Positions 3,001 through 22,830 of a stretch of DNA of 22,978 nucleotides are shown here, piece by piece. The stretch lies in IMG/VR virus record IMGVR_UViG_3300030104_006237, positions 29,458 to 52,435 of that record, one strand, 5' to 3'. This DNA is from a virus. Under the pieces are notes generated by a model. That model saw only the letters and a program-made list of their open reading frames with translations, was not told the DNA's origin and searched no databases. How positions within the stretch are numbered: position 1 is the stretch's first letter; each line of letters begins with the position of its first letter. A program made the translations under genes and the position numbers.

Positions 3001-6000
3001 TAATACCTGAGAAATATTAAGATAGGTATTATGAAATTCATTATCAGAGAAATCTGCGTCTTCACCACCAAATGGTTTTTGATAAAGATAATGTTCATAA
3101 TTATCAGAATATGATGGAACAGTAGCAGTTATGTCATTTGTAAAATCGAAAGTATAAGTAAACACCAAGTTAGTCATATCTGTACCACCAGAATAATGTG
3201 GTGGGGTAAGATGTGGATCGTTTCCTATATTGAGATTAAAATTATCATACATTAATTGAAATTCATAATTATAAAATAAATTTTCATGTGATGAATTTCC
3301 TTCACTATTAATATAACCATTGACAAAATTATTATCATGTATAGATGGTAATTCATTATTAATTAAGTAGTTAGAAAAATTACTGTTATTAAATTTATTT
3401 AATTGAATTGGCATAACTATAGGCCCATCACCAACCTCCGTCACTGCAATATCAATACTTCTTATAGTGGATGTAGTTGTTATACTAGTCATATCATCCG
3501 TGTATTCTGGAAATAAACCATCTACACTTTCTGTGGGTCTTATAATATAACATTGATAGTCAACAAAATCTGTACCAAAAAAGTTAAGATTTCCTTTATA
3601 TTTTACTATCCATTGTCCTGTAAAATTAGGAGAGTTTGGAGTAACATCTGTAATTGTACCAGATGGTGGTGGTCCATTAGGAAACTCTACACCAACTGTA
3701 AAACCAAGACTATTAACAGCAAATTCTAATGAAACTGTTTCCCAATCACTTAATGGTTGTCCAGGTGATGTTGGAACACTAACCTCATTATTATCAACTC
3801 CACAATTTAAAAATATTGTTGTTTCTACATCTTCAACAGCTGTTGTAGCTATATCATCTATAAGTAAATCTATTATAGGAAGCACTCTTATATGTATCTC
3901 ACCAATTTCAGATGTCACATCCGTATCATCTGTTATTGTATATCTGATAATTTCTTCAGATATAAGACCACCAGAAGTTGTATAATTATAAAAATTTGTT
4001 TGTGGTTCATATCTAATTTGAGTTGAACTAAGAGCTCCAGCTTGTCCATTATCAGGTTCACTAATAATTTCAAAAGTAAAAGGTCCATCAGAATCTACAT
4101 CAGTAAAGTTAAAACCCTCTTCTAAAGTTATGTCAATAAATGTGTCTTCAAAAGTAGTGTATGTTTGTGTTTGTATAACAGGTGCATCTAAAACTGGTTC
4201 TACAAATATTGAATGTGTAAGTTCTGTAGTACATGTTTCGTCTTGATTAGTAAGACCATCAAAATCTTGATTACATATAATATAACTAAAACTATCATAA
4301 GTTGCTAATTCGTTTACAGTTGAAAAATAATCTAAATTAGATAAATACATTACTGAATCAATACCAGCTGGTAAGGAACTAATAGTTTGATATCTACATA
4401 GAGCGTGTACTTCTTTATATATTTCATAAAACTGAGCATCAATAGTACCAGAACCAAATAGCTCTCCTGTCGACCAATTAAAATCTTGATGTTGAAGAGC
4501 AATCCAATGTGGTGAGTCGGGGTCTTCTGAAAAACTATTACCACCCCTCCTTCTGACATCATAACACTCATATATATTTTCCATAGTTGAATCATTTGTT
4601 ATTGGATTACAACAAGTACTACCAAAGTTATTATCAAATTGACCCCAATCTCCCGTTTTATCACAAACATCATTATACAAAGAAAATCCAGGCTTGTGTA
4701 AATCACAACATGGATTATTAGGTGTTGAATCTATATCTATTCGAAAACCATTATTAGGAACTTCTTCAAGACAATATGAACCAGTACACAGAATCGCATC
4801 TGAACCATCATAAAAATTAAATATATCCAATTCAAACCAACTACGATAATTTGGTCTAATACCCTCACCATTATCACCACAATATTCTAAATTAAAAGGC
4901 TCCCAATTACCACTTGAACGATAACCCATATTACAATGTTTGTAGGTTACGACATTACTATTACTATACAGTCTACTTTCTTCACCATCTTTGACTAATA
5001 TACTTTGAAAAATAACATTTGGATTATTTGTAGTTATTAATGAATCACAAGCTTCTCTTCCAGTTTCAAATTCATATTCAATATCAGAGCCATTTGCAGA
5101 AAAACATCCTTGTTCTAATCCGAATGTTGGTACATTCCCGTTACATTCGTTTTCATATATTTTAACTGGTGTATCATTTACAGGTAGATTAATTTCATTA
5201 CCATCTAAATCTATTAAAGTGCCATACTCTGGAACTCGTGTTATATGAATTGTTAATTGTGGTACTAATGTTGAAGATAATTCAGAAAAAGGATAAATTT
5301 CTAAAGTTGTTTGTTCATCTTCAAGTACATTAAATTCCGTCTCGTATGCATTTATTACAGGCATTAATGGATTGTATGGAAAGAAATCAAAGTATGTATT
5401 ATTTTCAACAAATTCATCAAATTCTGCTTGGTTATAATTTTCAAATGGGTATTCCGTCCCAATTGTAGTATCTTCAGGTATGGTTTCGAGTTTAACACAA
5501 GGATATTCTCCAGCATTAGGGCCATCAGCTATTACATAAATTGGAACTTCTACATCACCATTTTCAATAGAGCTATCACATATACCACCCGCATCATCAC
5601 AATAATATATTTGAGCAAATTGATAAATAGGGGGTTGATAAAATATATCCGGGCTTCCATCACCATCAAAATCTAAAACATATCTAAATGGATACTCACA
5701 TAATGAATTATCATTTATACAATAATCAAACTCACAACCCACATTACAAGCACCACCAGTTCCAAATGGATTACCTTCTCCAGCTGAATCTAAACAAGAT
5801 AAACAAGATTCATATTCACAAGAACCATCATCGAAATTAGCCATTGGATTATAATTACAAGCATAAGAATCCATACAACCAAAAACTTGAACAGGACATC
5901 CAGTCCAAAGATTTTCGTGTGGTTGTGATGGTAGTAAATTTAATTCTATATTTTGATTTGGATAACTTGATTCAAATATTTGAGTATACAGTGGTGACAT

Positions 6001-9000
6001 AAAATCTAAATTATACCACTCTTGTGTTTCATCAAAAGTAGTCCACGCACCTATATCATTTACCACTAAATTTTTATTAACAAAAGGTTCAAATAATGGA
6101 TTTTTTAAATCACCCCAACCAAAAATTTCAACTCCAGATCTAGTTGGTGAAGATGATACATAATTACCCAGTCTGAAAAATGCATCATAACTCAGGTAGT
6201 TATCATGTATCGCAGCCCCTAAAATACCTGTTTGATTAATAAGCCCATTGTCAAGAAGTTCACGCCCCCAAACAGATTCTGGATCTGCTGCTGTATCTTT
6301 AAATAATGATGGAATTCCATTTGTTGTATCATCAGTAACAGGGTATGAATAGTTTGGATTCATATTAATCAATGGATTATTACTAAAATCATACTGTTTA
6401 AAATCTTTTTGAAAAGTGTGATTATATCCAGGTAAACTTATTCTAAATATATCATCTGTTGTAAATGTTTTATTACTTGAAATTGGATATTCACAACTTG
6501 TTGGATTACAATTTGTTGGTGAAACGGGAAAACCAGTAGAATAACAATAACCATCATTCTCATTCCATGTACAATCGGGACAATCTATACATACTTGTTG
6601 GTCTGTTATATCACAACAAGTTCCAAAACCCCTTAACCACCCACGAGTATAATGATAATACGCATAATGTTCCCAACATTCTTCCTCATTATAAAACCAA
6701 TCAAAATTAATATAACCATCTGTTGGATTAACTATTGTTGAAAAATCATCATATTCTCCGCGACACCATTCTGGAGCGTCATCTTTAATTCTTTGAATAA
6801 TAGTTCCTTGTAATACAGGAACAGAAAATGATTTTTGATTTTGAGGTGGTGTAGCACCCCAAGCTGACAAATCATCCCAACCAATTAATCCCCCACTACT
6901 TAATTCATTCATTGTTGTTGGGCCATTAAAATGGTCTGTAAATCTACAATTAAAAACTTCACAATATGGTTCGTTACCAAACTCATAAAGTGTTGGATGT
7001 TTAAATGGTAATGAGAATGTAGTTTGATGGGCAAGACATTCATCACCCCCACCACATTCATCTAAATTAACTATACTACACGGTTCACCGCTTAAACCAC
7101 ACCGACCATCAATCGTATACATTGTTACTGGTAAGTCAACAATATCTCCGTCTTCAGGATTAAACCCATTAGGTTTCCACTTAATACCTCTATCACTACA
7201 TACACTTACATTAGCAGCGTAAGGGGGATTATCCCAACATTGTAAAGGTAAACCACCTTCCCAAGCCCAAGCTCTACCATAATTACCAGTACTATAAGCT
7301 TCACCACATATACCACAAACATTTAAAGTATATTGATGTAAATCAGAAGCTGTGGGATTTTCAAGATCATCATAACCACAAGCACACAAAGAACCATAAT
7401 CACTACCATAGTTAGGTAAAGATGGGCCATCAGATTGAGCTCCAAATGCAAAACCTGGTAATTCATTTGCAAACATTCTATATGTAGGATTTGATGGATT
7501 TCCAGTAACAGAAGAGTGAAATTTTCGATTCATAGAATAATGATAAGTATTAACTCCTCCTAAAAAACTATTTTCAAAATTTAACACTCCCAATTCATCA
7601 CAATCATCTACTTTAACACCAGTAATTGAACTAATATAACCTGAAGAATAATTATTATATGGGGCAGCATTACCAGAATAAACAGTAGGACAATTTCCAA
7701 AATCGTCTCGTGGTAATACTCCACTACATTCACAAGCAAATTCTGGTATGTTTTGACAATATTGTTCAACATATTCTAAATTTACATCATCACCATCAAC
7801 AGCTTGTTCTAAATCTATACAAACTTGTGAAAATGGTTCTCCAGGATTATCAGAATTTGGACCACCACATAGTTTATGATACGAATCAGGTCTTTCAAAT
7901 AAATAATAATACTCACTCGGCCATGGATAATCCGAAAGTACAGAACTCGCAGGACCTGAATTATCTGTAAATTCAGGATATGCCGGATTAAATAATGTTT
8001 GTCCACATGTCCATGTTGTGTGAGTACCACCACAAACACCAGCACAATCTCTTACAGGACAATCAGTCATCGGGTGTGGGTTTTCATCGGCTAATTGTGA
8101 ATAAAGGTCTGGATTTAAATTATTTATATTATAATCTATACAATAATATTGTGTATCCCCATCACCACAATATTGTGTATCCCCATCAAACGCTTCACAA
8201 GAATCACGAAGTTCATTATTACCACCACAGGTTCCACAATAGTCAAAATATGTACAACAATCATTATCTTCACCACCACCAAAAACACCTCCAGAATTAC
8301 ACGGTTCTGAAGCTAATGGATTATAATTACAAGCTTGTGGATCAGTACAACCTACAATATATTCATCACCAGCATTAACACAAACACCCTCACCAGTTGC
8401 ATCATTTGTTTGTATCCATTCACACTCACTACAAGTTATACAACCCTCTTTTGGTGTAGCCCATTCTCCATCCGCAGCATTAGGAATACCAATTTCTATA
8501 AAATCAGGATCAGGAGGATAACTAAAATAACCACCCCCACCATCAAACTGACCATCAGGAGGAACATTATTAAAATCAGAAATTATAAACCCATCAAATG
8601 CATACACACCACCATATTGAATGGGGCCACCCCAATAATTTCGACCTGGATATGAACCATCTCTTGTTCTATCTATCATAACATTAAATCTATCACAACT
8701 ATAACCATCTACAGGTCTACTATCGTCATCACTTCTCCAACAAGCACATTGTGGCCAATTTTGATTCCCATTTACTCCAAAAAATCCAGGTTGACAATAG
8801 AAAAAATTCCAATCACCTGAAGCCCATCCACCACCACCTCCTCCGGGACCAGAGTTATGTGTTAATATACCATTTGCAAAAAATGTATGGTTATCTTCAA
8901 CAGTTATGTCATATGTTCTTATATTTTTTTCAAGTATATATTCTATATTCTCTACAATAACTTCTTTTAAAGTGTCATCACTATCATCATAATAATGTAA

Positions 9001-9549
9001 AGTGTCGCCCACATCTAATGATTGAATATTATTTCCATTATTACTATCTATTACCCATTGATGAACTCTATTACATCTCTCCTCATCAACAGCAATAAAT
9101 CCTTTTTCTTCTGACCAAAATGGATTAGCAATTGTATTGTGTGTAATGATACCATTATTAAAGGTAACTTTAACTGTAATATCACCATCTTTTAAATTAT
9201 GAGTTTGTGTATATAATTTTGTAACTAATTTATTTTCAAATTGATTTGTTTTTACATTAAAAGATTTAACATAATCTCCGACTTTTATTTCTTCAATATT
9301 TTTATTGGAATTATCAGGTAATAAAACTTTCGTACCAGCTACAAAACATTCTTCAGTAGGTCCACCACCAGGTGAAGTAAATAAATCAGCCATTGAACCA
9401 CCAAAAGGCTCACCATCCAATATTTGATTCCAATCATATGGATTACCATCTGGACCAATCCACACTTCAGGTTGTGTAATACCTTGATGATATAAACCAC
9501 CACTATAAAACATAGTTATTAATTTGTTTTTATTGTTATCAACCGCCAT
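1..9549 (-). CDS. Giant cysteine-rich multidomain tail/fibre protein, intein-containing (3' end beyond window)
   Basis: An ATG at 9549 follows an AAAGG ribosome binding site and opens a frame that has no stop down to base 1, giving at least 3183 residues; the C terminus lies outside the window. Residues 1-67 form a short N-terminal extein that ends in a Gly/Pro-rich stretch. Residues 68-232 are a Hint/intein domain, followed by the extein start SGPGGGGGGW. The next ~1100 residues are rich in Cys, with two GCxDxxACNYNPxA motifs (from residues 400 and 1224) and several CxxCGG motifs. A calcium-loop-like DFDGDGSPD lies at 1293-1301. At least three cadherin-like modules starting with an 'ED.. T' signature follow (around residues 1400, 1785 and 1898). 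No enzyme domain other than the Hint was recognised. It is the last visible gene of the baseplate operon, 14 nt after the LamG protein gene, which suggests a virion surface role such as adhesion or a long tail fibre. That role is inferred. A secreted or host-derived adhesin is less likely in this context. Confidence 0.85.
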   Translation of the reverse strand, partial: MAVDNNKNKLITMFYSGGLYHQGITQPEVWIGPDGNPYDWNQILDGEPFGGSMADLFTSPGGGPTEECFVAGTKVLLPDNSNKNIEEIKVGDYVKSFNVKTNQFENKLVTKLYTQTHNLKDGDITVKVTFNNGIITHNTIANPFWSEEKGFIAVDEERCNRVHQWVIDSNNGNNIQSLDVGDTLHYYDDSDDTLKEVIVENIEYILEKNIRTYDITVEDNHTFFANGILTHNSGPGGGGGGWASGDWNFFYCQPGFFGVNGNQNWPQCACWRSDDDSRPVDGYSCDRFNVMIDRTRDGSYPGRNYWGGPIQYGGVYAFDGFIISDFNNVPPDGQFDGGGGYFSYPPDPDFIEIGIPNAADGEWATPKEGCITCSECEWIQTNDATGEGVCVNAGDEYIVGCTDPQACNYNPLASEPCNSGGVFGGGEDNDCCTYFDYCGTCGGNNELRDSCEAFDGDTQYCGDGDTQYYCIDYNINNLNPDLYSQLADENPHPMTDCPVRDCAGVCGGTHTTWTCGQTLFNPAYPEFTDNSGPASSVLSDYPWPSEYYYLFERPDSYHKLCGGPNSDNPGEPFSQVCIDLEQAVDGDDVNLEYVEQYCQNIPEFACECSGVLPRDDFGNCPTVYSGNAAPYNNYSSGYISSITGVKVDDCDELGVLNFENSFLGGVNTYHYSMNRKFHSSVTGNPSNPTYRMFANELPGFAFGAQSDGPSLPNYGSDYGSLCACGYDDLENPTASDLHQYTLNVCGICGEAYSTGNYGRAWAWEGGLPLQCWDNPPYAANVSVCSDRGIKWKPNGFNPEDGDIVDLPVTMYTIDGRCGLSGEPCSIVNLDECGGGDECLAHQTTFSLPFKHPTLYEFGNEPYCEVFNCRFTDHFNGPTTMNELSSGGLIGWDDLSAWGATPPQNQKSFSVPVLQGTIIQRIKDDAPEWCRGEYDDFSTIVNPTDGYINFDWFYNEEECWEHYAYYHYTRGWLRGFGTCCDITDQQVCIDCPDCTWNENDGYCYSTGFPVSPTNCNPTSCEYPISSNKTFTTDDIFRISLPGYNHTFQKDFKQYDFSNNPLINMNPNYSYPVTDDTTNGIPSLFKDTAADPESVWGRELLDNGLINQTGILGAAIHDNYLSYDAFFRLGNYVSSSPTRSGVEIFGWGDLKNPLFEPFVNKNLVVNDIGAWTTFDETQEWYNLDFMSPLYTQIFESSYPNQNIELNLLPSQPHENLWTGCPVQVFGCMDSYACNYNPMANFDDGSCEYESCLSCLDSAGEGNPFGTGGACNVGCEFDYCINDNSLCEYPFRYVLDFDGDGSPDIFYQPPIYQFAQIYYCDDAGGICDSSIENGDVEVPIYVIADGPNAGEYPCVKLETIPEDTTIGTEYPFENYNQAEFDEFVENNTYFDFFPYNPLMPVINAYETEFNVLEDEQTTLEIYPFSELSSTLVPQLTIHITRVPEYGTLIDLDGNEINLPVNDTPVKIYENECNGNVPTFGLEQGCFSANGSDIEYEFETGREACDSLITTNNPNVIFQSILVKDGEESRLYSNSNVVTYKHCNMGYRSSGNWEPFNLEYCGDNGEGIRPNYRSWFELDIFNFYDGSDAILCTGSYCLEEVPNNGFRIDIDSTPNNPCCDLHKPGFSLYNDVCDKTGDWGQFDNNFGSTCCNPITNDSTMENIYECYDVRRRGGNSFSEDPDSPHWIALQHQDFNWSTGELFGSGTIDAQFYEIYKEVHALCRYQTISSLPAGIDSVMYLSNLDYFSTVNELATYDSFSYIICNQDFDGLTNQDETCTTELTHSIFVEPVLDAPVIQTQTYTTFEDTFIDITLEEGFNFTDVDSDGPFTFEIISEPDNGQAGALSSTQIRYEPQTNFYNYTTSGGLISEEIIRYTITDDTDVTSEIGEIHIRVLPIIDLLIDDIATTAVEDVETTIFLNCGVDNNEVSVPTSPGQPLSDWETVSLEFAVNSLGFTVGVEFPNGPPPSGTITDVTPNSPNFTGQWIVKYKGNLNFFGTDFVDYQCYIIRPTESVDGLFPEYTDDMTSITTTSTIRSIDIAVTEVGDGPIVMPIQLNKFNNSNFSNYLINNELPSIHDNNFVNGYINSEGNSSHENLFYNYEFQLMYDNFNLNIGNDPHLTPPHYSGGTDMTNLVFTYTFDFTNDITATVPSYSDNYEHYLYQKPFGGEDADFSDNEFHNTYLNISQVLPSIPDNFINTSDFERTEMVGGSVNLDSKVNGFSWVDIGPFSFQKDYGTGNINVADSSTWYATELSGKGGLGLLGGYSFGGLTEEGTIAGTNGILALAEYQMARYARHRRTENNLHTDSDYGNEASGDINQMGWLTKAPFIEPIKNGTGLTKSKVTMKEDKTAYFVVRAFNPQEYSTLSDNISSQITLTGGLDNNGDTSGVSIQLVQMDGDDEILVDEPSQYVFGHKPLQSTSDVSSREWANSFSHIPLGNGAPYDILKYYYPSENSGIVGTPVPDNFNNIIPHHNYNYLYENNNELTQFSDYAYLFLTDTSPQYEKIAAIHPTWGVNLPVYTGGDLVVEWEGGMGGEAVGEYWVDSQPIFTNYSVINNNGIERPIKGNLSNFVYKCDPRFVPKKKLPYLDETDDTYISSYKNVHLWPFNGGVGTDLDPITGYYRTYSDTSYKRANFPETPNMDDMLLEDNTGFFNFCFNHNYGDRSQHKGPKNQSIVEFVYKITLEPNYYNKSVDFGADGYTEIDSPVTVNINLTNLDCDSAEVGTSSVCNTEINFDLSVTSVNDGLNLNIINSVLNYDAEASDTINTFHSYHHRTPTVIPPVKQIGLDHYGVNAPEESYDIYSIHRETDYTRWQNDIPNLYKDPNDIGYYPINNTHREQFTFPAADISTTQNSLVADDRNADEPNMDYSSNYVPIYFTITDEDIEGEFGVDGNYLCSEFGYVNPYLVSAEILDDWKNNPEYFESETTTQFLQHQAFVDEVKNPCIAINFNGNLSSQASYGRLKSENPTSDGYLYLNNPPDMLYNLELISKTPLGNQYTGYEHLFKLYVFPHKSMSTNKQMRFEIIAFEGIDPSLAIDTSITTEGPSISTTKYHWEVMLELFNHYQTPDTDGDSISGGNYVTTNECIEYFNGRYGMNEYTAGQLCLGLDNYGPPGFGWYTENPPAEEPGKIRMGTGANIDTEWEYALNGAGLCDDDFTNGMLGYAPCPGGGSWSGEIPAYSRFNPPSVDD
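3430..5365 (-). repeat. Cadherin-like (tandem-type) beta-sandwich modules of the giant protein
   Basis: Three segments share the opening 'xEDxxTxxxI': NVLEDEQTTLEIYPF (from about 5350), TTFEDTFIDITLEEGF (from about 4155) and TAVEDVETTIFLNC (from about 3845). The middle copy is the clearest. It continues with FTDVDSDGPFTFEI, ISEPDNGQ, RYEPQTNFY, a YTITDD strand and a closing EIHIRVLPIID, the usual order for cadherin-like tandem domains of surface adhesins. The first and third copies are weaker. Domain limits are approximate. Confidence 0.5.
5800..8352 (-). repeat. Cysteine-rich repeat region of the giant protein
   Basis: Two diverged copies of a GCxDxxACNYNPxA motif occur, at 8352 downwards (GCTDPQACNYNPLA) and 5880 downwards (GCMDSYACNYNPMA, followed by DDGSCEY). 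Between them are CxxCGG-like elements: CGTCGGNN near 8236, CAGVCGG near 8055, CECSGV near 7735 and VCGICGE near 7320. Motifs of this kind are familiar from long secreted proteins of marine bacteria, notably Bacteroidota; that comparison is from general knowledge, not a search. The copies are too diverged to align as DNA repeats. Confidence 0.65.
8145..8188 (-). repeat. Short tandem duplication (20-nt exact repeat, 24-nt period)
   Basis: The 20-mer at 8145-8164 recurs exactly at 8169-8188, an offset of 24 nt (8 codons). In the protein this gives GDTQYCGDGDTQYYC, a duplicated GDTQY segment inside the cysteine-rich region. The reading frame is preserved. It looks like a recent slippage or duplication event. 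Confidence 0.85.
8854..9348 (-). other. Mini-intein (Hint domain) in the giant structural protein
   Basis: Residues 68-232 of the giant protein (165 aa). The N-terminal splice block is CFVAGTKVLLPD, with catalytic Cys1, followed by the typical 'IEEIKVGDYV' strand. The C-terminal blocks read YDITVEDNHTFF and then ANGILTHN, with penultimate His231 and terminal Asn232; the +1 residue is Ser233. This is the layout of a splicing-competent class 1 intein. At this length there is no room for a homing endonuclease, so it is a mini-intein. Block B is recognisable as TIANPFWSEEKGFIAV, but the expected TxxH histidine is Asn (TIAN). Splicing would join SPGGGPTEE to SGPGGGGGGW. A bacterial-intein-like (BIL) domain that mainly cleaves is the alternative. 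Confidence 0.9.
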
Positions 9550-14635: not shown

Positions 14636-15124
14636 TTAATATCCACCAGCATCACTAACGGGTGTAATATCACCACCAGTTTGATTAACTTCTACTTGTA
14701 CTGAACTAAGTGTTGTTGGGTCTTGGTTTATATTAAAATCAATTTTTACGGCTACAGTATTTTTATCAAAATTACCATCATCTTCTATTCCAAATATTTG
14801 AATATCTTCAACATTAACGAATGGTAACCAAAAATTTAATTTATTTAAAATATCTTCTTGAATTTCTAAATCTAAATCACCATCCATTTGTTCAAATAAA
14901 ACACTTCTTAAACTTAAACCAAAATGAGGTTGCATAATTCTTTCACCAGCTTCAGTTAGTAATAAGTTTCTTATATTATTTTTTACAGCCTCAATAGTTG
15001 TAGATGTTGATGCAAAATATCCATCCGCACCATCACCTCTTCTTATGGGTAAATCTATTCCAATAAAAATATTTTCATCTCTATCATTTATAAAAGGTTT
15101 TTTTGTTGTATCTTTTATTGCCAT
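14636..15124 (-). CDS. Baseplate wedge protein gp25-like
   Basis: 162 aa, slightly longer than T4 gp25 (132). The family core is clear: FIGIDLPIRRGD near residue 20, TIEAVKNNIRNLLLTEAGER (42-61), MQPHFGLSLRSVLFEQMDG, and a C-terminal strand pair VAVKIDFNINQ. The GER near residue 60 sits at the position of the conserved E-P/E-R region of gp25/GpW-type wedge proteins. In known baseplates gp25 staples gp6 to the sheath initiator. The C-terminal ~20 residues (GGDITPVSDAGGY) are an extra tail. The start ATG lies 1 nt after the upstream stop, with an AAAGGA site inside the end of the upstream gene. Confidence 0.9.
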   Translation of the reverse strand: MAIKDTTKKPFINDRDENIFIGIDLPIRRGDGADGYFASTSTTIEAVKNNIRNLLLTEAGERIMQPHFGLSLRSVLFEQMDGDLDLEIQEDILNKLNFWLPFVNVEDIQIFGIEDDGNFDKNTVAVKIDFNINQDPTTLSSVQVEVNQTGGDITPVSDAGGY

Positions 15125-15125
15125 T

Positions 15126-15731
15126 TTATTTTATTAATCCTTTGTCTATTTTATCAAAGTAAAGATTTACAGCTGTGAAATCATTTTTTGGTTCATTTGT
15201 ATCTGTATTTTCTGTAATGTCTCCCTCTCCTATATACGCGTGTCCATATGATTTTAACTGACTACCATGTTTTCCACCAGTTTTACCCATTACAAGTTTT
15301 TCAGTAATAGTTCCTTGTCCAATAGCACCAGGTAACATACCACCAGGAGAAGAACCACCAGAAACAACTTGTCCTTTTACAACCACATTGTCAGATTTTA
15401 ATCCAACAGGTCCTGATGTTTCAAATTTTTCAATTTCAAGTGAAGCTTTTAATTTAGAAACAGTCCAATATAATTTTGGGTCTGTTAAAAATTTTATAAT
15501 AGCATCTCGTACACCCTCACATTCTTTTTGTTGTGATGGTGTTACGGTTGATGGTTCTTCAAATTCTTGTTCATCTCTTAACAATTGGTCACTTTCAGCT
15601 TTAGCAAGTACTAAATTTCCCAACAAACCTAATTTATCTTTTTTTGATGAATCTCGTAACTCATCTATTGTCTGTCCTACATAGTTTGTACTTGGTATAT
15701 TACCTATTTTTTGACTTTTTTCAACAGCCAT
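15126..15731 (-). CDS. Unknown virion-operon protein (201 aa)
   Basis: No family recognised. The N-terminal ~110 residues are charged and helical (VGQTIDELRDSSKKDKLGLL, then KAESDQLLRDEQEFEEP), followed by a short DPKLYWTVSKLKASLEIEKF segment. The C-terminal ~90 residues are Gly-rich and beta-prone (GQVVSGGSSPGGMLPGAIGQ) and end in VNLYFDKIDKGLIK. The gene sits between the spike and gp25 genes, 4 nt after the previous stop, with a GAGG site. A small baseplate or spike-associated part is plausible from position alone. A spike-tip (PAAR-like) role was considered because of the Gly-rich strands, but no Pro-Ala-Ala-Arg motif is present. Confidence 0.7.
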   Translation of the reverse strand: MAVEKSQKIGNIPSTNYVGQTIDELRDSSKKDKLGLLGNLVLAKAESDQLLRDEQEFEEPSTVTPSQQKECEGVRDAIIKFLTDPKLYWTVSKLKASLEIEKFETSGPVGLKSDNVVVKGQVVSGGSSPGGMLPGAIGQGTITEKLVMGKTGGKHGSQLKSYGHAYIGEGDITENTDTNEPKNDFTAVNLYFDKIDKGLIK

Positions 15732-15735
15732 ATTT

Positions 15736-16125
15736 TTATTTTCCTCGTTTTCTGTCGTCTATTTCTTTAGTTTTTTTTAAAACACTACTATAATCTTTAT
15801 TAACGAATTGTGCCATTGGGTCACTTGAAGGAACAGCTTGTTGTGAATTTCCATTCATCATTTCACCATAGCCACCGCCAACCAATTCATTCATTCTTTC
15901 ACTTGTATATTGTGAACCACCCATTGTTTTCCAATTATCACCCATAGCTGTTTCATTTAACACATCATTTAAAACTTTATTTTTTGAATAATGTTTTTCT
16001 TGAATTGGTTTTTTTGGTTGAGACTGAGTTGGTTGTTTTAATTCAGTTATCACTTCTTGAATTGCCATTGCAACTTCTTCTCTTACTATTGTTCTTACCA
16101 TTGTTCTTAATTCTGATTTTTTCAT
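15736..16125 (-). CDS. Small unknown protein with N-terminal helix (129 aa)
   Basis: No family recognised. The N terminus is one long charged helix with heptad-like hydrophobics (MVRTIVREEVAMAIQEVITE), then a Pro/Gln/Lys linker (PTQSQPKKP) and a low-complexity, Gly/Asn/Met-rich part (GGGYGEMMNGNSQ). It ends in a basic tail (KKTKEIDDRKRGK). The layout suggests a self-associating helix with a flexible tail. The start has a good AGAGG site 5-6 nt upstream, and the gene follows the spike gene by 28 nt, the longest gap in the structural block. It is likely a minor virion or assembly protein; this is inferred from position only. Confidence 0.65.
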   Translation of the reverse strand: MKKSELRTMVRTIVREEVAMAIQEVITELKQPTQSQPKKPIQEKHYSKNKVLNDVLNETAMGDNWKTMGGSQYTSERMNELVGGGYGEMMNGNSQQAVPSSDPMAQFVNKDYSSVLKKTKEIDDRKRGK

Positions 16126-16153
16126 TTTTTCCTCTTATTTATTTTTATTAAAT

Positions 16154-17656
16154 TTATTGTGCACTACCACCAGTACTTTCATCTTGAGAAGATTCACCTT
16201 GTGTTGGGTTTTTTTCTTCATCATTATTTTCTATAAAATGATATATACTTTTTATACTTTCTAATTTATCTTTTATACTTGTTAAACTTCTTCTTCCTAA
16301 TGGATTTCCAGCCGCATCTGTTGAACCACTTATTTCAAATTTAGGATTATCAGCATTTGCTATTTGAACCATCATTGGGTCGACAAGTGGTAGTGGAGAA
16401 CCCAAAGGTCCAACATAACAAGCTGATGCTAAACAATCAACCAGTTCATTTAAAACAGTATAAAGTTGTTCACCTAAAATCATCGGTTCAGGCACAGGTA
16501 AATCTGTGTTTTTATTTTCATCACCATCATCTAATCCCATATTATAATGGTGTATTTTAGATGGGGCTCCTAAGTAAGTATATTTAGAATTTATTATTAA
16601 ATCATTACCAGCGGTAATAGTTATATCTTTACTAGCAGCCATATGTATTTTAGGATGAGCTGATAAATACATATCAGAATTTTTTGAATTTAAAGTTATT
16701 CTATGACTATCAATAACTATTTGAGGTCTGTTATATAAATGTATTTCTTGACTTGGAGTAAAATCTTCACTTAAATTTTCTGTCAGATGTAAAGAATATT
16801 GTAAGTTCCTATTATTATCTTTAATTTTATCAGAAGCTAAATGTAATCCTCTTATTGTATCTATACCTTCACTACCTACTTCCGTACTGTATTTTTGAAA
16901 ATGTTGGAATAAATTTCCCTTTTCTATTAAAGCTATTGTAGAACCTATACCTAAAGTTTCAACTCTATTACCAATACCCAAACCATTAGATAAAATTATA
17001 TATGGGTCTTTATACCTACTACCAACTCTTATACTATTACCATGTCTACCCTCTAACATTAAATCACCATGTGTATGTGTTATATTTGGACTTTCCTTTG
17101 GATTATCTAAATTTGAATGATTTACATCAGAGGCTGTATTATCTCTAATTTTTTGTAGTCTCAGTCGTTGTTTTTCTTTTTGAAAAGAAAGATTTGTTAA
17201 TTTTGGTATTGGACCATCAACCATATCCGCAGAATATCCAACTGGATATAATTTCGATAAAAGTAAATCTTCATTCCAATTTACATTATTTTCTGTATTT
17301 AATGGTCCTAAAAAGAAATTTTGTCCACCAACTGTACATAAAAGAACTGGATCTCCTTGTGCCGGCATTTCATACATACCTCTTAATAAAGGAAAGTATC
17401 TATATTTATCCCAATTCCCCTCTTTGTAAAGGTCTGCTCTTCTTTTTATTTTATTATAGTATGGAAAAGCTATAATTGAATTTACATTTTCAGCATAAGA
17501 TACTAAATCAGGACTTTTAGCAAAATAATCAGTAGGACTAAGCACCACAACTTCTGCTCTACCTGGTACAAATTGCATAAACTGGGGCACATTAGCTTTT
17601 TTACCAAAAGGCATTGTTACTGTAGAGTCTTTCATATTTCTTAAAACAGAACCCAT
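16154..17656 (-). CDS. Baseplate central spike protein, gp5-like, no lysozyme domain
   Basis: 500 aa. Residues 27-120 resemble the OB-fold of gp5/VgrG-type spikes (GRAEVVVLSPTD, IAFPYYN, then GDPVLLCTVGGQNFFLGPLN at 101-120). At about 198-225 is the DLMLEGRHGNSIRVGSRYKD motif common in phage hub proteins. Residues 305-365 are a run of short strands (QIVIDSHRITLNSK, MYLSAHPKIHMAAS, KDITITAGNDLIINS, KYTYLGA) typical of a triple-stranded beta-helix spike. A helical C-terminal extension with an acidic Gln/Ser tail follows. T4 gp5 has a lysozyme domain between OB-fold and spike; no lysozyme-like segment is visible here. The gene starts directly after the previous stop (TAAATG) with a GGGGA site. 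Confidence 0.8.
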   Translation of the reverse strand: MGSVLRNMKDSTVTMPFGKKANVPQFMQFVPGRAEVVVLSPTDYFAKSPDLVSYAENVNSIIAFPYYNKIKRRADLYKEGNWDKYRYFPLLRGMYEMPAQGDPVLLCTVGGQNFFLGPLNTENNVNWNEDLLLSKLYPVGYSADMVDGPIPKLTNLSFQKEKQRLRLQKIRDNTASDVNHSNLDNPKESPNITHTHGDLMLEGRHGNSIRVGSRYKDPYIILSNGLGIGNRVETLGIGSTIALIEKGNLFQHFQKYSTEVGSEGIDTIRGLHLASDKIKDNNRNLQYSLHLTENLSEDFTPSQEIHLYNRPQIVIDSHRITLNSKNSDMYLSAHPKIHMAASKDITITAGNDLIINSKYTYLGAPSKIHHYNMGLDDGDENKNTDLPVPEPMILGEQLYTVLNELVDCLASACYVGPLGSPLPLVDPMMVQIANADNPKFEISGSTDAAGNPLGRRSLTSIKDKLESIKSIYHFIENNDEEKNPTQGESSQDESTGGSAQ

Positions 17657-18052
17657 TTAATTCCCCAAATTAATTGTTTTATCTTTTATATTTGTTAATT
17701 TATCACTTTCATTCTGTAAATCATCAACTGTATCTTGAAGTGTAGCCATCAATTCATCTTTTTCAGCATCAGATAGTAACATTGTTTCATCATTATTACC
17801 AGATGATTTAGAAATAATTCTTTGTAAAACACCAGCTAATTTAACAAGGTGTTCATCATTCTTAACTGCGGTATCCATATATTCTTTTATAATTGGAGCA
17901 ACCATAACTACATCATCTATAGTTTGAATGAATCCGTGTATTTCTGATATTAGTAAATCAATTTGAACTTTACGCTTTGTTGTATTTTCATAAATATCCT
18001 TTGTTAAATCTTGAAAAGTTTTACCCTTGAATATTTCTTTATTATCTGACAT
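17657..18052 (-). CDS. Unknown helical protein, first gene of structural operon (131 aa)
   Basis: The start is placed at the ATG at 18052 (MSDNKEIFKGKTF), which has a GGAGA site 9 nt upstream. The frame is open further, to an ATG at 18133, but that would put 27 hydrophobic, AT-coded residues across the intergenic region and terminator, so it is rejected. The protein is mostly alpha-helical and charged, with no Cys and no membrane segment. Segments such as VQIDLLISEIHGFIQTIDDV and LMATLQDTVDDLQNESDKL suggest amphipathic or coiled-coil helices. No family was recognised. As the first gene after the terminator, immediately before the spike gene, it is probably an assembly or structural factor. 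Confidence 0.75.
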   Translation of the reverse strand: MSDNKEIFKGKTFQDLTKDIYENTTKRKVQIDLLISEIHGFIQTIDDVVMVAPIIKEYMDTAVKNDEHLVKLAGVLQRIISKSSGNNDETMLLSDAEKDELMATLQDTVDDLQNESDKLTNIKDKTINLGN

Positions 18053-18060
18053 TTTTACAT

Positions 18061-18065
18061 TCTCC
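18061..18065 (-). promoter_or_regulatory. Ribosome binding site fixing the start at 18052
   Basis: Minus-strand GGAGA lies 9 nt upstream of the ATG at 18052. It is the only convincing Shine-Dalgarno match between the terminator and the coding region, and so decides against the upstream in-frame ATG. Confidence 0.7.
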
Positions 18066-18112
18066 GTTTGTATGTAACTATTCATATATAAATATAGAAT
18101 TTGTAAAAATAT
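18066..18112 (-). promoter_or_regulatory. Possible promoter region of the structural operon
   Basis: This AT-rich stretch lies just downstream of the terminator and upstream of the first structural gene, where a late promoter is expected. On the minus strand it reads TTTTTACAAATTC then TATATTTATATATG. The T4-type late box TATAAATA is present exactly, but on the plus strand (18087-18094); the minus-strand copy is only an approximate match. The assignment rests on position. Confidence 0.25.
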
Positions 18113-18114
18113 AG

Positions 18115-18151
18115 ATAAAAATAAAAAACCCACTCGAAGATAAGTGGGTTT
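18115..18151 (-). terminator. Intrinsic terminator after the gp55-like gene
   Basis: Perfect 9-bp inverted repeat AAACCCACT / AGTGGGTTT (18126-18134 and 18143-18151) with an 8-nt loop. On the minus-strand transcript the stem is followed directly by the U-rich run UUUAUUUUUAU. It lies 25 nt after the stop of the sigma-factor gene and separates the two operons. Confidence 0.92.
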
Positions 18152-18175
18152 AATATTTGTTGATTAGTATATAAT

Positions 18176-18937
18176 TTAGAAAAATTTTCTAATTTTATTA
18201 TCTTGTTTGGAATTACTATGAAAAAAATTATGTAGAATAATTTTATAATGTTTTTTAAGAACATTAACGACACTAGTAATATGTGATGTATTTACATTTG
18301 TCATTTCTCTTATTAATATATAAAGAGATTTTTTATTAAAATTTTCTATTTCTTCTTTTTGTTTAAATAATTCTAAAATAGCATAAGAAATATCAATATC
18401 TCTTTGTTTTTTAAATATACTTGGAATATTTTCTTCTAAATAAAGTATAACATCATCTGTTAAAGCTAACATATCTTCATCGTGTTCTTCACTTTTATTA
18501 TGTTTGTAATTGTTTAATTTACTAACATCAACATGTTTTTTTAGTTTTTTATAATTAGCATTATTATGTAATATTAAATAATTTTTAGCTACAATTGAAA
18601 AATAACTAAATGCTTTTGAACCTTTTGTATGGTCATATTTATGAATGTTCATTACCATAAAAGCAACCACTTCATGTTTAACATCCCTAAATGGTTCATC
18701 AAAATAAGTAAATTTAAAAGTGTTGATTATATTTTCAGCTAATTTATCAAACGCCTTATGTATTTCCTGACCGTATATTTTATTTCTTAAGGCATGATTA
18801 TCAGGATTAGTATTATATCTAACTATAGCATCTTGAACTTCTGGTCCAAAATATAATTTCTTTTTACTTGGAGGTCTTCCTGGTTTTTTTCTAGGTTTTC
18901 CAGCTTTAGTTAATTCTACTTTTTTAGTTTTTGCCAT
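18176..18937 (-). CDS. gp55-like late-transcription sigma factor
   Basis: 253 aa, longer than T4 gp55 (185). The core around residues 55-125 resembles the sigma region 2 of gp55-type factors: AFDKLAENIINTFKF, then VKHEVVAFMVMNIHKYDHTK, and GSKAFSYFSIVAKNYLI. This part would bind RNA polymerase and melt late promoters. The N terminus is very basic and contains an AT-hook-like KPGRPPSKKK (18-27). The C terminus ends in DNKIRKFF, resembling a sliding-clamp-binding tail (hydrophobic-x-x-aromatic-aromatic). T4 gp55 also contacts the clamp through its extreme C terminus. The start ATG at 18937 has a GAGGAG site inside the upstream gene, overlapping it by 14 nt. It is the last gene before the terminator and lies next to the late structural block. 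A highly diverged homologue, but region 2 and context agree. Confidence 0.8.
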   Translation of the reverse strand: MAKTKKVELTKAGKPRKKPGRPPSKKKLYFGPEVQDAIVRYNTNPDNHALRNKIYGQEIHKAFDKLAENIINTFKFTYFDEPFRDVKHEVVAFMVMNIHKYDHTKGSKAFSYFSIVAKNYLILHNNANYKKLKKHVDVSKLNNYKHNKSEEHDEDMLALTDDVILYLEENIPSIFKKQRDIDISYAILELFKQKEEIENFNKKSLYILIREMTNVNTSHITSVVNVLKKHYKIILHNFFHSNSKQDNKIRKFF

Positions 18938-19211
18938 CTATATTCTCCTCTATAATTTCATTCTCAAAAACACCATCTAATGATAATTGTAATTCTTTTA
19001 ATTGTTCAAAAAAGAATCCTGTTTCATCATCAGATTCATAATGTCCTTTTGAATCTACTAATTTCATTTTTTCAGTTGCAAATGTAACTATTTGTTGAAA
19101 CTCAAGTATTAAATTTTCATATTGATTTATTCTTCTTAATGAAAAATATAATAATGTAGATGATACTACACTAATTAAAAAAAATAAAATCAAAAATATC
19201 CATAACCACAT
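18924..19211 (-). CDS. Small single-pass membrane protein (95 aa)
   Basis: Residues 2-24 (WLWIFLILFFLISVVSSTLL and onward) form one clear transmembrane helix at the extreme N terminus, followed by SLRR, a basic stop that suggests the C-terminal part stays in the cytoplasm. The remaining ~70 residues are charged and helical (EFQQIVTFATEKMKLVDSKG) with an acidic tail. No cleavage site is evident, so a signal anchor fits better than a signal peptide. No family recognised. An AGGAG site lies 8 nt before the ATG; the gene follows the HD gene by 9 nt and overlaps the sigma-factor gene by 14 nt. Holin was considered, but one membrane helix and this position do not decide it. Confidence 0.75.
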   Translation of the reverse strand: MWLWIFLILFFLISVVSSTLLYFSLRRINQYENLILEFQQIVTFATEKMKLVDSKGHYESDDETGFFFEQLKELQLSLDGVFENEIIEENIDGKN

Positions 19212-19220
19212 AATTATCTC

Positions 19221-19958
19221 CTACGCAAACAATTCATCAAACTTCTGTTTGAGATTGTCTACCTTTTTTTGTTCATCTTTACTTTTTGGAACTTTTGTAT
19301 TTACAGGTTCACTATCATCACCATGCCATTCATCAAACTCAATATGCGTCGCCATCATATCAGCCTGATGAAGAATATAACACATATTAGTTCTCAATCT
19401 AAAATCAGGATTATATCCCATTAGATAAGCTTTGTTAGCTTCATCATATAAACCATCAGTTAATTTAATACCAATGTATTCTTTATCTGTAACTTTGACA
19501 CCATAATGTTGAAGTAACCACAAACCTCTATCAGGTACTTTCATATACTGAAGAGATGGATTGTGTTTATAGATAGCACCTTGATTTTTTCTATGCCATT
19601 CCGAATCTTGTGGAATATAATAGTCGTGTTCCAAATCACCAACTTTACCTAAGTCGTGATGCATTGCTGCAAATACCAACTCTTCGTCTGTAAAGTTTAT
19701 GTCTGCTCCATTCTTTTCCCACACCTCTTTAACTTGTAAAGAGAATTGGATAATATGAAGAATGTGTTCAACATATCCACCAGGCATTGCGTTGTGAAAA
19801 TGTCCTTTAGCACTAGCTGGTGCAAACATCATTCTCTCTTCAAAATCTTTATACATCTTTAAAAGATTTTCTTTTCTATCATCATCAATAAAACCTTCAA
19901 TAGTGTCTAATAGTTTTTTCCAATTGTCTTGTATTTGTTCTGCTGATAATTTTTTCAT
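19221..19958 (-). CDS. HD-domain metal-dependent phosphohydrolase
   Basis: 245 aa. Metal ligands are in the expected order: His55 in HFHNAMPGGYVEH, the HD pair His101-Asp102 in AAMHHDLGK, His/Gln/Tyr in LLQHYGVKVTDKE (about 149-161), and Asp200 in ILHQADMMATHIE. The HAMPGG-like motif and the HHDLGK box are typical of phage HD hydrolases that act on nucleotides or nucleic-acid ends; the exact substrate cannot be read from the sequence. Codons are less AT-extreme than in the neighbouring genes. The start overlaps the glycosyltransferase stop (ATGA) and has a GAGG site, so the two are translationally coupled. A role in phage nucleotide metabolism or in processing a modified nucleotide is possible (inference). 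Confidence 0.85.
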   Translation of the reverse strand: MKKLSAEQIQDNWKKLLDTIEGFIDDDRKENLLKMYKDFEERMMFAPASAKGHFHNAMPGGYVEHILHIIQFSLQVKEVWEKNGADINFTDEELVFAAMHHDLGKVGDLEHDYYIPQDSEWHRKNQGAIYKHNPSLQYMKVPDRGLWLLQHYGVKVTDKEYIGIKLTDGLYDEANKAYLMGYNPDFRLRTNMCYILHQADMMATHIEFDEWHGDDSEPVNTKVPKSKDEQKKVDNLKQKFDELFA

Positions 19959-21295
19959 TTTATAACCTCGTATCTATTTTTTGTAAATTTAATTGTCTTT
20001 TCATTTCTTAATCTATTTCTATATCCAGTAAAAGATATTCTCACTCCCCAATTTAGATAATCTAAAATATCTGCTTTAGATACAGAACCTTTTTTATGAA
20101 TAAAATTTAATATTCTTTTATAAGAATCTGTATCATTCTTTAGGGTTGGTAATTTATCTATTGTTTCATTTAACATATTATTAAATTGATGTATAGCTGT
20201 TTCCCACTTACCTTTTTCAAATCTCTCTAATGATTTATCACTCCAATACTTCCTATCTTCGTCATTATCTAAAATAGTATGTATTGTTTGAATAAAATCA
20301 CTATCGTCTTTATAATATATTCCAGCACTATCAGCTAACTCGTGATAATAATTATCATCTGAAAACATATAAGGAACACCCACACTCATACCATCAGTAG
20401 CAGATATAGCCCAACCACCATATCTCTGTTTACAACAAACACCAATATAACAACTTGATAATTTAGAAAAATATCCAAACCTATCATACTTATCATTCGT
20501 CATATATGGTTTTGTAACTGAATCAGATAACGGTACCCACACCTCAAAGTCTTGCCTATCTTCCCACAATCTATCCATCTGTTTTAAGAACCATGGATAA
20601 TCTTTATAAGTGTGAGGTCTGTGATTGTATACTATAATTTTTTTATCAGATGATTGTTTATCATACTTTGGAATCTCCCACCCTAAATAGTTGGGAACAA
20701 TTATCTCATCTAATCGTATAAGTGACTCTTTGTTAAAACTTTTCTTCGCATTCTTTAGTATAAGTTCCTTTTGCCCTAGCGTATTGATACCACACCTCTC
20801 CATCTCTAATAGTCCAAGAATATTAACATCCATCATAGTCATTTCATAATTTGTTATTTCAGGAAATTCTGTCCAATGAGTATAACCAATAAACAATGGA
20901 TTTATATTTGTGTTATTATATAAAAGATTTTTTAATTGTAAAGTATGTTCTGGTAAATGAGTCCATACAATATCATAATGTTTTTTCTTCCAATCAATTT
21001 CTCTTATGATTGTTTTGAAATCAAAATGTGTTCTCATAGCATTTGGATAAGATGGAAGAGGCAATATAATTTGTTCTGTATTATCAAAATCTAAACTATC
21101 TATTTGTTTTGGTGATATTATAGTCCAAAATAAATCATCTCGTATCTTACTTAATTCATTAATTATATTTCCAAGAACAACAACATAAGAATCTTTTTCT
21201 AAATCTTTTTGATAAGTTATGTTTGGATAAACAAGAATGTTATATCCATATTCTTTATCATTGTCCTTAACATCGATGAAGTTATTTAAATTCAT
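19955..21295 (-). CDS. GT-B glycosyltransferase with C-terminal winged-helix domain
   Basis: 446 aa. The first ~385 residues have a two-lobe GT-B layout. The N lobe has NILVYPNITYQK and HYDIVWTHLPEHTLQ. The C lobe has IIVYNHRPHTYKDYPWFLKQ (221-240), FEVWVPL, a GVCCKQRYGGWAISATDGM stretch (285-303), and SVGVPYMFSDDNYYHELA, the usual donor-binding region of GT4-like enzymes. Residues 391-446 look like a separate winged helix: YKRILNFIHKKGSVSKADIL, a recognition-helix-like FTGYRNRLR, and a wing IKFTKNRYEVI. A DNA-binding appendage on a glycosyltransferase points to DNA as acceptor, as for base glucosylation by T-even phages; this is inferred. It overlaps the upstream gene by 1 nt (TAATG) and the HD gene by 4 nt. 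Confidence 0.8.
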   Translation of the reverse strand: MNLNNFIDVKDNDKEYGYNILVYPNITYQKDLEKDSYVVVLGNIINELSKIRDDLFWTIISPKQIDSLDFDNTEQIILPLPSYPNAMRTHFDFKTIIREIDWKKKHYDIVWTHLPEHTLQLKNLLYNNTNINPLFIGYTHWTEFPEITNYEMTMMDVNILGLLEMERCGINTLGQKELILKNAKKSFNKESLIRLDEIIVPNYLGWEIPKYDKQSSDKKIIVYNHRPHTYKDYPWFLKQMDRLWEDRQDFEVWVPLSDSVTKPYMTNDKYDRFGYFSKLSSCYIGVCCKQRYGGWAISATDGMSVGVPYMFSDDNYYHELADSAGIYYKDDSDFIQTIHTILDNDEDRKYWSDKSLERFEKGKWETAIHQFNNMLNETIDKLPTLKNDTDSYKRILNFIHKKGSVSKADILDYLNWGVRISFTGYRNRLRNEKTIKFTKNRYEVIK

Positions 21296-22830
21296 TATTT
21301 AGTATCCTCTAATTCTATTCCATATTCATTTAAAAATGTTTCACCCGTTGGTGTATTCCAAATGTTATTATAGTCAACACCCACCTTTGGTCTTTTAGTT
21401 GGTAAATGTCTAAATCTTATTTTAACTCTCTCACCATTTTTATTTATACAAGGTTGATTTTTTAAAATTTTTTGAAAATATGGTAAACCATTTTTATCAT
21501 CAGATTTAGCATTTCTAAAACTATCAACAGTCATACCAAGTGGATAAGCTAAATCACAAACTATTTCTTCAAGAGGTTCTGACTCTTCTTCTATCCATTT
21601 TAAATTTAATTTTCCATAAGCTGATACTTTAACAGCACCTGCAGATTGTTTAATATTCATAACACCAGTAGATTTTTCAGTTTCTTTTTTTATATTAGTT
21701 TTCCAAGATTTACTATATCCACCAGTATTCCAAGTTATTAAAGCATTGTCTTCTACCTCTAAGTCTCGTTTAGCTATAGCTTTTTCTATAATTTTTTGTG
21801 CTAAGGTTGATTTAATATTATGTGATTTTAAATAAGTGTAATTAATGTCACTATCTATTGGAATATTTCTTTCTTGATATTTTGTAACTAATCTATTTAT
21901 ATAATAATCTTCCCCATTTGTTTGACGAGGTTCGGAAATTTCTTTATTAAAAAGTGAAGCTAAATCGTCAAAATAATCATTTTCAAAATCTTTTACTCGA
22001 TTGATAGGTATCCATAATACTAATATTCTTGAACCATTACCATCTCGTATTCCTTGTTCTCTTGTATTTCCATGTATTAAAAAAGGATTTTCAATAAATT
22101 TTTTGTGAATAACATCATAATATAACTTCATACCATTCTTCAATCTTACTGCTATAACTGGTCTTATTGACATAATTCCTTCTAACATATTACTTGAAAC
22201 CGTTTCAGATACGCTAGTTATAACCGTCTCATCTTCTTTTCTCCCAGCTAATTGAAGTTTATTAGTGCCAAATATATTAATATCTTCTAATGTTATTTCA
22301 AACTCATCATTATTGTATTTATCAAAATCTTGTACTAACATCCACTCATTAAGTGCGTCTTCTACATCATCGTGGAGTTTATAGATTAAATTATCATCCA
22401 TTTCTTTTATATTACTATTACCATTATTACCATTGTAATATAGTGGAGATTGTTGTGCTTTTCTAAACATCAATTCTTTGTTTTCAGCTTTCTTAGCTTC
22501 CTCTCCTAATTTATAAAAATCTATTACTTGAAAACCCCATTCTATATCTGGACTGTCTTTATCTTTAAAAAAATCTATATCTTCAGCAGAACCCCAATAA
22601 CTACCATCTATATAACCTAACGAACCTTTATGGTATCCTAAATAAAAAACAGGTAATTTATCTTTTTCATTTTTAATATCTCTATTTAAAACCATATTCG
22701 TATAGTTAATCCAAATATAAAGGTATCCACTATTTTTAATATTGTACCAATTGGGTGCTAAAAGATTTTTTGTATATATTATATTTCTAATATTGTTAAC
22801 TTTATAATCTTCTACTTCAATTTTTATCAT
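21295..22830 (-). CDS. GIY-YIG-like plus ParB/sulfiredoxin-like fusion protein
   Basis: 511 aa. Residues 34-135 match the GIY-YIG nuclease layout: SGYLYIW (GIY strand), VFYLGYHKG (YIG strand, 62-69), DGSYWGSA, EWGFQVIDFY, then AENKELMFRKAQQSPLYYN, where Glu116 is the likely catalytic acid. Residues 205-285 resemble a ParB N-terminal/sulfiredoxin fold: SIRPVIAVRLKNG (221-233), LIHGNTREQGI (251-261, the conserved G-x-x-R turn) and ILVLWIPINRV. The following ~225 residues contain helical segments (YTYLKSHNIKSTLAQKIIEK) that may bind DNA, and a C-terminal basic region ending in GETFLNEYGIELEDTK. The fusion was not recognised as a named family. The ATG overlaps the upstream stop (ATGA) and has an AGGAG-rich leader. 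It could be a homing-type, repair or modification-linked nuclease. Confidence 0.6.
   Translation of the reverse strand: MIKIEVEDYKVNNIRNIIYTKNLLAPNWYNIKNSGYLYIWINYTNMVLNRDIKNEKDKLPVFYLGYHKGSLGYIDGSYWGSAEDIDFFKDKDSPDIEWGFQVIDFYKLGEEAKKAENKELMFRKAQQSPLYYNGNNGNSNIKEMDDNLIYKLHDDVEDALNEWMLVQDFDKYNNDEFEITLEDINIFGTNKLQLAGRKEDETVITSVSETVSSNMLEGIMSIRPVIAVRLKNGMKLYYDVIHKKFIENPFLIHGNTREQGIRDGNGSRILVLWIPINRVKDFENDYFDDLASLFNKEISEPRQTNGEDYYINRLVTKYQERNIPIDSDINYTYLKSHNIKSTLAQKIIEKAIAKRDLEVEDNALITWNTGGYSKSWKTNIKKETEKSTGVMNIKQSAGAVKVSAYGKLNLKWIEEESEPLEEIVCDLAYPLGMTVDSFRNAKSDDKNGLPYFQKILKNQPCINKNGERVKIRFRHLPTKRPKVGVDYNNIWNTPTGETFLNEYGIELEDTK
22428..22731 (-). other. GIY-YIG-like domain of the 511-aa protein
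   Basis: Residues 34-135. The GIY equivalent is Y36-L-Y38 and the YIG equivalent is Y63-L-G65, with a DGSYWGS turn at 75-81 and Glu116 in the ENKE helix. The YIG motif varies (YLG). Confidence 0.55.

Follow-up and report, generated by a model that had tools for sequence, protein, structure and literature searches.

The alpha- and beta-glucosyltransferases of T4 are the described phage enzymes with which GT-wH, the glycosyltransferase reported here, is best compared. They come from T4-like phage, share a GT-B fold with GT-wH and transfer sugar to DNA, the role that we propose for GT-wH. GT-wH differs from them in its GT4-like core and C-terminal winged helix, in the lack of a sequence-profile match and in that no hydroxymethylase was found in the 48 records searched. 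A further T-even enzyme, TAGT (PF20691, phrog_842), is a separate protein that can be encoded beside GT-wH. According to the excerpted text of its description, TAGT of T2 and T6 adds glucose to cytosine that is already alpha-glucosylated, with the first glucose provided by a GT-B enzyme, and the T6 model places TAGT in a superfamily distinct from GT-B (PMC13216743). Outside DNA modification, the GT4 enzymes BshA, MshA, PimA/PimB' and the methylmannose mannosyltransferase 7qsg have a core fold like that of GT-wH (Z 22-26) and use small molecules or glycans as acceptors. Their identity to GT-wH is 8-15%, and the alignment stops before the winged helix. The glycosyltransferase of phage HY126 (PDB 9ir0) is likewise a phage GT-B enzyme (Z 21.2), with 11% identity to the GT-wH core. 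The nearest structural and sequence relative outside our set is an uncultured Caudovirales phage protein, A0A6J5M983, with 31% identity. At 366 aa, and judged from its length only, this protein probably does not carry the tail of GT-wH.

GT-wH was found in a window of 22,978 bases, the final part of a 52,435-base IMG/VR virus record. The open reading frame spans 19955-21295 on the minus strand, starts with ATG and encodes 446 aa, overlapping the upstream gene by 1 nt and the downstream HD gene by 4 nt. In sequence scans, Pfam Glycos_transf_1 matched with E 0.0011 and 19 bits, under the curated cut-off of 26.4, and there was no PHROG (E <= 0.1), NCBIfam or PADLOC match. Searches by tblastn with three family members against 50,697 GenBank phage records returned zero matches, and PDB sequence searches with the GT-wH and DruA profiles gave chance-like matches only. 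The family is widespread in viruses of aquatic bacteria and common in IMG/VR metagenomic viral records. A first IMG/VR scan recovered 26 loci, one profile found relatives in 312 of 330 candidate stretches and another in 263 of 275. The neighbourhood sets consist of the best 80 of the 312 and the best 80 of the 263 relatives, and the counts below do not come from independent lineages, as related phages are among the loci. The sole relative from a genome collection (L240, PFHO01000040.1) lies on a metagenome-assembled contig binned as Candidatus Moranbacteria and likely represents a misbinned phage. Literature searches found no title on a winged-helix DNA glycosyltransferase, no paper combining DUF4338, glycosyltransferase and phage, and no description of the GT-wH architecture and locus organisation.

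The structure of GT-wH was modelled by AlphaFold2 on 16 relatives (pLDDT 83.4, pTM 0.80). In the model, the core (residues ~17-384; 20144..21247, minus strand) has a GT-B fold and is a GT4-type glycosyltransferase. A fold search with the core placed 971 of 998 chains at Z >= 8. The best solved match is 7qsg (Z 26.2 over 337 residues, rmsd 3.9), and the 50 matches listed contain 49 more entries at Z >= 20.5. The T4 glucosyltransferases are not among these 50, a listing that does not exclude them as matches, and neither of the T4 alpha and beta families matched GT-wH in Pfam at E <= 1. An alignment of 19 diverse members shows D301 (20393..20395, minus strand) and R226 (20618..20620, minus strand) as invariant. 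We take D301 to stand at the second Glu of the GT4 E-x7-E motif and R226 to be a candidate donor-phosphate Arg. K231, which pairs with R226 in the window, varies in distant members.

The tail (residues 388-446; 19958..20134, minus strand) has a winged-helix fold in the model, with the clear topology H-(E)-H-H-E-E, and reaches a pLDDT of 88.7 when modelled alone. A second structural aligner placed 54-59 of the 59 tail residues on winged-helix domains, mostly at an rmsd of ~2 A and with Z values of 6.9-7.8, below the value of 8 under which the aligner cautions that scores can reflect a common arrangement. Foldseek gave no E < 0.06 for the tail, which we attribute to the shortness of the domain. 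Going by their names, we take the 50 tail matches to be winged helices. They presumably include many DNA binders (ROK, MarR and MecI-like repressors, Z-alpha, SSV1 F-112) as well as some binders of RNA (SelB) or protein (cullin WHB, UFL1). An earlier note on this DNA had claimed a gene at 19955-21295 with a GT-B core and a winged-helix-like tail. The gene is real, its reading frame is exact and both folds were recovered in the models. The note would have given up a role on DNA if the C-terminal domain modelled as a fold that does not bind DNA; the domain modelled as a winged helix, with DNA-, RNA- and protein-binding matches. Its premise that sugar-transfer enzymes need no DNA-binding tail went too far, since proteins too are ligands of winged helices, as the cullin and UFL1 matches illustrate.

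The winged helix is an integral component of GT-wH. Core and tail profiles were run over 13,067 ORFs, and the tail was present in all 270 core ORFs that extend to the C-terminal end of the core (157 distinct when compared over the last 200 aa). Of the remaining complete ORFs, none contained the tail, and six tail-only ORFs were all located at locus ends. Such complete linkage, together with the absence from other complete ORFs, indicates that the winged-helix match exceeds chance. Sequence searches with the tail alone gave weak and scattered matches. A scan of IMG/VR with a tight tail DNA motif found only the GT-wH family among the matches listed.

Positive charge is concentrated in the tail. 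In the window, the tail (residues 387-446) has a net charge of +8 compared to a core maximum of +5, which none of 327 same-length core windows exceeds. Among 45 non-redundant full-length members (38-100% identity to the window), 44 have a tail with positive net charge and one a tail with a net charge of zero, and the net charge of the core is negative in 39. Of 161 proteins, 128 have a tail more positive than any of their core windows, and 33 do not. The best-conserved tail stretch in the alignment of 19 diverse relatives covers residues 416-430 (WGVRISFTGYRNRLR; 20006..20050, minus strand), where 6 of 15 positions are invariant versus 52 of 387 before residue 388. The presumed recognition helix (residues 423-430) lies within this stretch and is helical in the AlphaFold2 model. 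The conserved helix and the basic charge fit a predicted nucleic-acid-reading helix.

The nearest structural matches of the core are glycan and small-molecule GT4 enzymes, which would suit an enzyme that glycosylates a virion component or a host-surface glycan, with the winged helix serving as a protein-protein or dimerisation module. The protein-binding cullin WHB and UFL1 winged helices among the tail matches point in the same direction, as do apparent surface-sugar pathways in two related genomes (G020 and G043, by eye). We consider such a role unlikely, because the tail is strongly and conservedly basic with a conserved recognition helix, and GT-wH is located apart from the surface-sugar clusters, with genes for DNA modification and nucleases around it. 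A second alternative is an RNA acceptor, such as a modified tRNA base. GT-B enzymes glycosylate queuosine in tRNA, and the SelB winged helix, found with RNA, is among the tail matches. A non-systematic inspection of neighbourhoods showed no linkage to queuosine or tRNA genes, and we judge this alternative very unlikely.

Directly upstream of GT-wH lies a hypervariable slot with DNA-modifying and DNA-cutting genes, newly recognised here. Slot genes were counted for 80 of 107 distinct N-terminally complete GT-wH genes, namely those with at least 900 nt upstream, and were grouped by single-linkage blastp with Pfam run on cluster representatives only. The slot gene is on the same strand as GT-wH in 79 of the 80 loci. 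Its overlap with the start of GT-wH measures 1 nt in 33 loci and 4 nt in 16. By cluster, the slot contains DruA-like (12), GmrSD_N-like (10), Mom-like (8), GIY-YIG-like (8), ParB-like (4 and 2), D12 methyltransferase (2), N6_N4 methyltransferase (2), GHKL ATPase (2 and 1) and TAGT (1) genes, and the remaining clusters have no family name. Pfam matches of the representatives were strong for Mom (E 3e-50, 4e-40 and 8e-44), DruA (2e-24 and 1e-22), D12 (4e-25), N6_N4_Mtase (5e-31) and HATPase_c_3 (1e-10 and 7e-14). GmrSD_N matched at 3e-11 together with HNH in L035, and below cut-off at 6e-7 in L084 and 5e-4 in L082. The ParB-like assignment is weak (PHROG E 9e-4, Pfam E 0.08), as is that of GIY-YIG, for which SegE_GIY-YIG matched three of nine aligned members (best E 0.03) and catalytic-looking residues were seen by eye. 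The slot gene of the window itself (21295..22830, minus strand, 511 aa, 1-nt overlap) has a GIY-YIG-like N-terminus by eye, a weak nuclease assignment with no match of the protein to the SegE_GIY-YIG profile. Further slot proteins resemble DUF262-type nucleases with HNH ends by eye, with weak or no Pfam support.

Turnover in the slot is high even between close relatives. Among pairs of GT-wH genes at least 80% identical, the slot genes fall into different clusters in 124 and into the same cluster in 39, where the count of different pairs may be too high if distant DUF262-like nucleases were split over separate clusters. In this position, GIY-YIG-like, TAGT, ParB-like and twice GmrSD-like genes are found in the window and the four relatives listed as nearest to it (90, 87, 84 and 83%). 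Two loci share a short leader (an ORF starting LGTSKRKI), which precedes GT-wH in one and a ParB-like slot gene in the other (L015, L066). This suggests that the leader stays in place and the cargo behind it is exchanged. Mom-family genes are also found elsewhere, with Mom somewhere in 9 of 15 records >50 kb and two or three separate Mom-family genes per phage record in G044, G020, G005, G048 and G001. The slot could be a hotspot for homing endonucleases or other mobile genes that merely abuts GT-wH and is uninformative on the acceptor. Many slot genes are indeed nuclease-like, homing also leaves nuclease genes beside a gene, and the turnover between close relatives is as expected of such a hotspot. 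The slot also contains non-homing DNA modifiers (Mom, two methyltransferase types and TAGT), however, the downstream genes are constant and the pairing of GT-wH with DruA survives relocation. We hold a mere hotspot, which overlaps with the other readings, to be possible but doubtful.

GT-wH is frequently accompanied by a DruA-like gene. Of 139 distinct GT-wH genes, 55 have at least 4 kb of upstream sequence, and in 48 of these 55 loci such a gene is found upstream in the same orientation. DruA was found in 13 of the 15 records >50 kb. It was missing from the window's own record, where the sequence stops shortly after the slot, and from a record in which GT-wH is cut by the record end. In the 166-kb record G043, the DruA-GT pair is located between sliding-clamp-like and clamp-loader-like genes (by eye), with the HD gene far away. 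In a 131-kb record, ~30 kb separate the pair from clamp-like genes. Pelagiphages and cyanophages have DruA-like genes too (31 records), and three inspected regions, from two pelagiphages and a cyanophage, contained no GT-wH-like enzyme beside DruA. A relationship of DruA to Mom was considered, and the profile comparison gave no support (probability 0.9%). The DruA/DUF4338 homologue of Synechococcus phage S-SCSM2R is annotated in GenBank as 'methylcarbamoylase mom', despite the absence of such a profile link.

The adjacency of TAGT in L031 is the strongest single link of GT-wH to DNA glycosylation. In this nearest relative (90%), the gene directly upstream of GT-wH is a TAGT (PF20691, E 7.7e-11, above cut-off) that matches phrog_842, beta-glucosyl-HMC-alpha-glucosyltransferase, over nearly its full length (E 8.7e-28). 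TAGT was found in 3 of 43 records searched, each time at most two genes upstream of GT-wH, and clustering revealed a fourth locus (L083), also two genes upstream. The 131-kb record contains DruA (60681-61880), a GHKL-like gene (59083-60681, by eye), TAGT (58301-59086) and GT-wH (56931-58292) in succession. The TAGT family also occurs outside phages, with one member in a control bacterium. The GT-wH protein itself did not match the TAGT profile at E <= 1. By analogy with T2 and T6, GT-wH may place the first sugar. The proximity of TAGT, which is homologous to an enzyme of T-even phages that acts on DNA, in 3 of 43 records speaks against GT-wH being tethered to DNA in order to modify a DNA-bound protein, such as RNA polymerase, a histone-like protein or a nuclease, for host takeover or counter-defence. 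A protein acceptor would be in line with the winged-helix tail, the conflict-gene neighbourhood and the failure of the PF00303 search across 48 records to find a base-hydroxylating enzyme. The data suggest no protein partner, and we regard this option as decidedly improbable.

Downstream of GT-wH, the gene order is stable. The HD phosphohydrolase-like gene (19221..19958, minus strand; phrog_28876, E 1e-12) overlaps GT-wH by 4 nt. Among 81 loci, HD is present in 74, followed by small membrane-protein-like and sigma-factor-like genes in 71 each, the sigma match itself being weak, and then by baseplate genes. A larger set takes in 127 of the 139 distinct GT-wH genes, for which at least 1.5 kb of downstream sequence is available, and HD is found in 96 of them. 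By its HD gene, the nearest cultured phage is Flavobacterium phage immuto (L214), which has the same block, from HD through small genes to the baseplate genes, at 14822-22013. This block does not include GT-wH, and a T5orf172-domain gene lies just upstream. A 57-residue immuto gene at the same place was considered as a free-standing tail and rejected by its sequence. Giant minus-strand ORFs of 943 to >3,000 aa lie downstream of the baseplate genes in the window (1-9549) and in L029/L030; some have Cys/Gly-rich stretches, and two contain unreadable codons (X). Near the start of the window's own record (L029, 255-1896), overlapping phosphomannomutase-like HAD and RimK-like ATP-grasp genes adjoin primase-like and recombination-nuclease-like genes (by eye). 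G020 contains NeuA/NeuB-like, aminotransferase-like and glycosyltransferase-like genes at ~72.9-88.9 kb, an apparent nonulosonic-acid or surface-sugar pathway (by eye). The surface-sugar clusters of G020 and G043 are large and include further glycosyltransferases (by eye).

Taken together, we think there is a somewhat better than even chance that GT-wH is a DNA-acting glycosyltransferase. We count in favour the fixation of the tail to the core, its basic charge and conservation, the slot with DNA modifiers and TAGT, the pairing with DruA, the retention of this pair after relocation in G043, and the position of GT-wH outside surface-sugar clusters. The hypervariable slot of DNA-modification and nuclease genes makes DNA glycosylation better supported than it was from the tail alone. 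Against it we count that a hydroxymethylase was not found, that the T4 families gave no profile match and that the structural neighbours are GT4 enzymes for glycans and small molecules. Further points against are the variable K231, core windows at least as positive as the tail in 33 of 161 proteins and the 366-aa relative that appears to be tail-less. In the window type of locus, GT-wH also lies among late baseplate genes rather than replication genes, two pelagiphages and a cyanophage have DruA without such an enzyme, and winged helices can bind protein. Enzymes of the GmrSD family cut glucosylated cytosine DNA, according to the excerpted text of their description (PMC13390438). Given this activity, GmrSD neighbours could serve as weapons against rivals whose DNA is modified, or could attack the product of GT-wH.

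The earlier note had proposed a DNA glycosyltransferase while remarking that no hydroxymethylase was visible in the window. The remark holds, and PF00303 is absent from the whole record. The proposal itself stood in part: the fold, tail linkage, charge and a neighbourhood including TAGT agree with it, and the hydroxymethylase and a match to the T4 families are missing. No dCMP/dUMP hydroxymethylase was found in the 48 records, which are possibly fragments, with PF00303 matching in two of them. One of these matches was read and rejected, as it is a normal thymidylate synthase with what looks like a DHFR gene next to it (by eye); the other is in L310. The TET/JBP search was silent everywhere, positive controls included.

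GT-wH is a constant component of a cassette, together with a DruA-like gene and an exchangeable gene for DNA modification or a nuclease. We suggest that the winged helix would dock the enzyme on the phage's own DNA. With a nucleotide sugar as donor, the core would then transfer the sugar, after replication, to a modified or hypermodified base that bears a hydroxyl. The acceptor hydroxyl might be made by DruA, Mom or an oxygenase. Where a T-even-type TAGT adjoins GT-wH, TAGT would attach a further sugar to the first one, as is reported for T6. The sugar would shield the genome from host nucleases, and perhaps also from the nuclease encoded in the slot. A more far-reaching and tentative proposal, which we consider improbable as it stands, is that DruA and GT-wH form an unrecognised two-step pathway of DNA hypermodification. 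The DruA-like protein would prepare the base, and GT-wH, reading DNA with its tail, would add the sugar. The gene between the two would be exchanged for other nuclease or modification genes, and the whole cassette would thereby act as a weapon of the phage that resembles restriction-modification, with the sugar marking self.

If GT-wH does act on DNA, it would add an architecture of DNA glycosyltransferase with a GT4 core and an obligate winged helix. This architecture is frequent among metagenomic viruses, and the search of 50,697 GenBank phage records did not find it. GT-wH would also point to a locus at which phages exchange genes for DNA modification and nucleases, linked to a DruA-like gene. 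Such a locus would yield new modified bases as well as modification-dependent nucleases and counter-defences. Should the two-step pathway prove true, it would provide a biochemical lead on DruA, the Druantia protein that gives the Pfam family its name.
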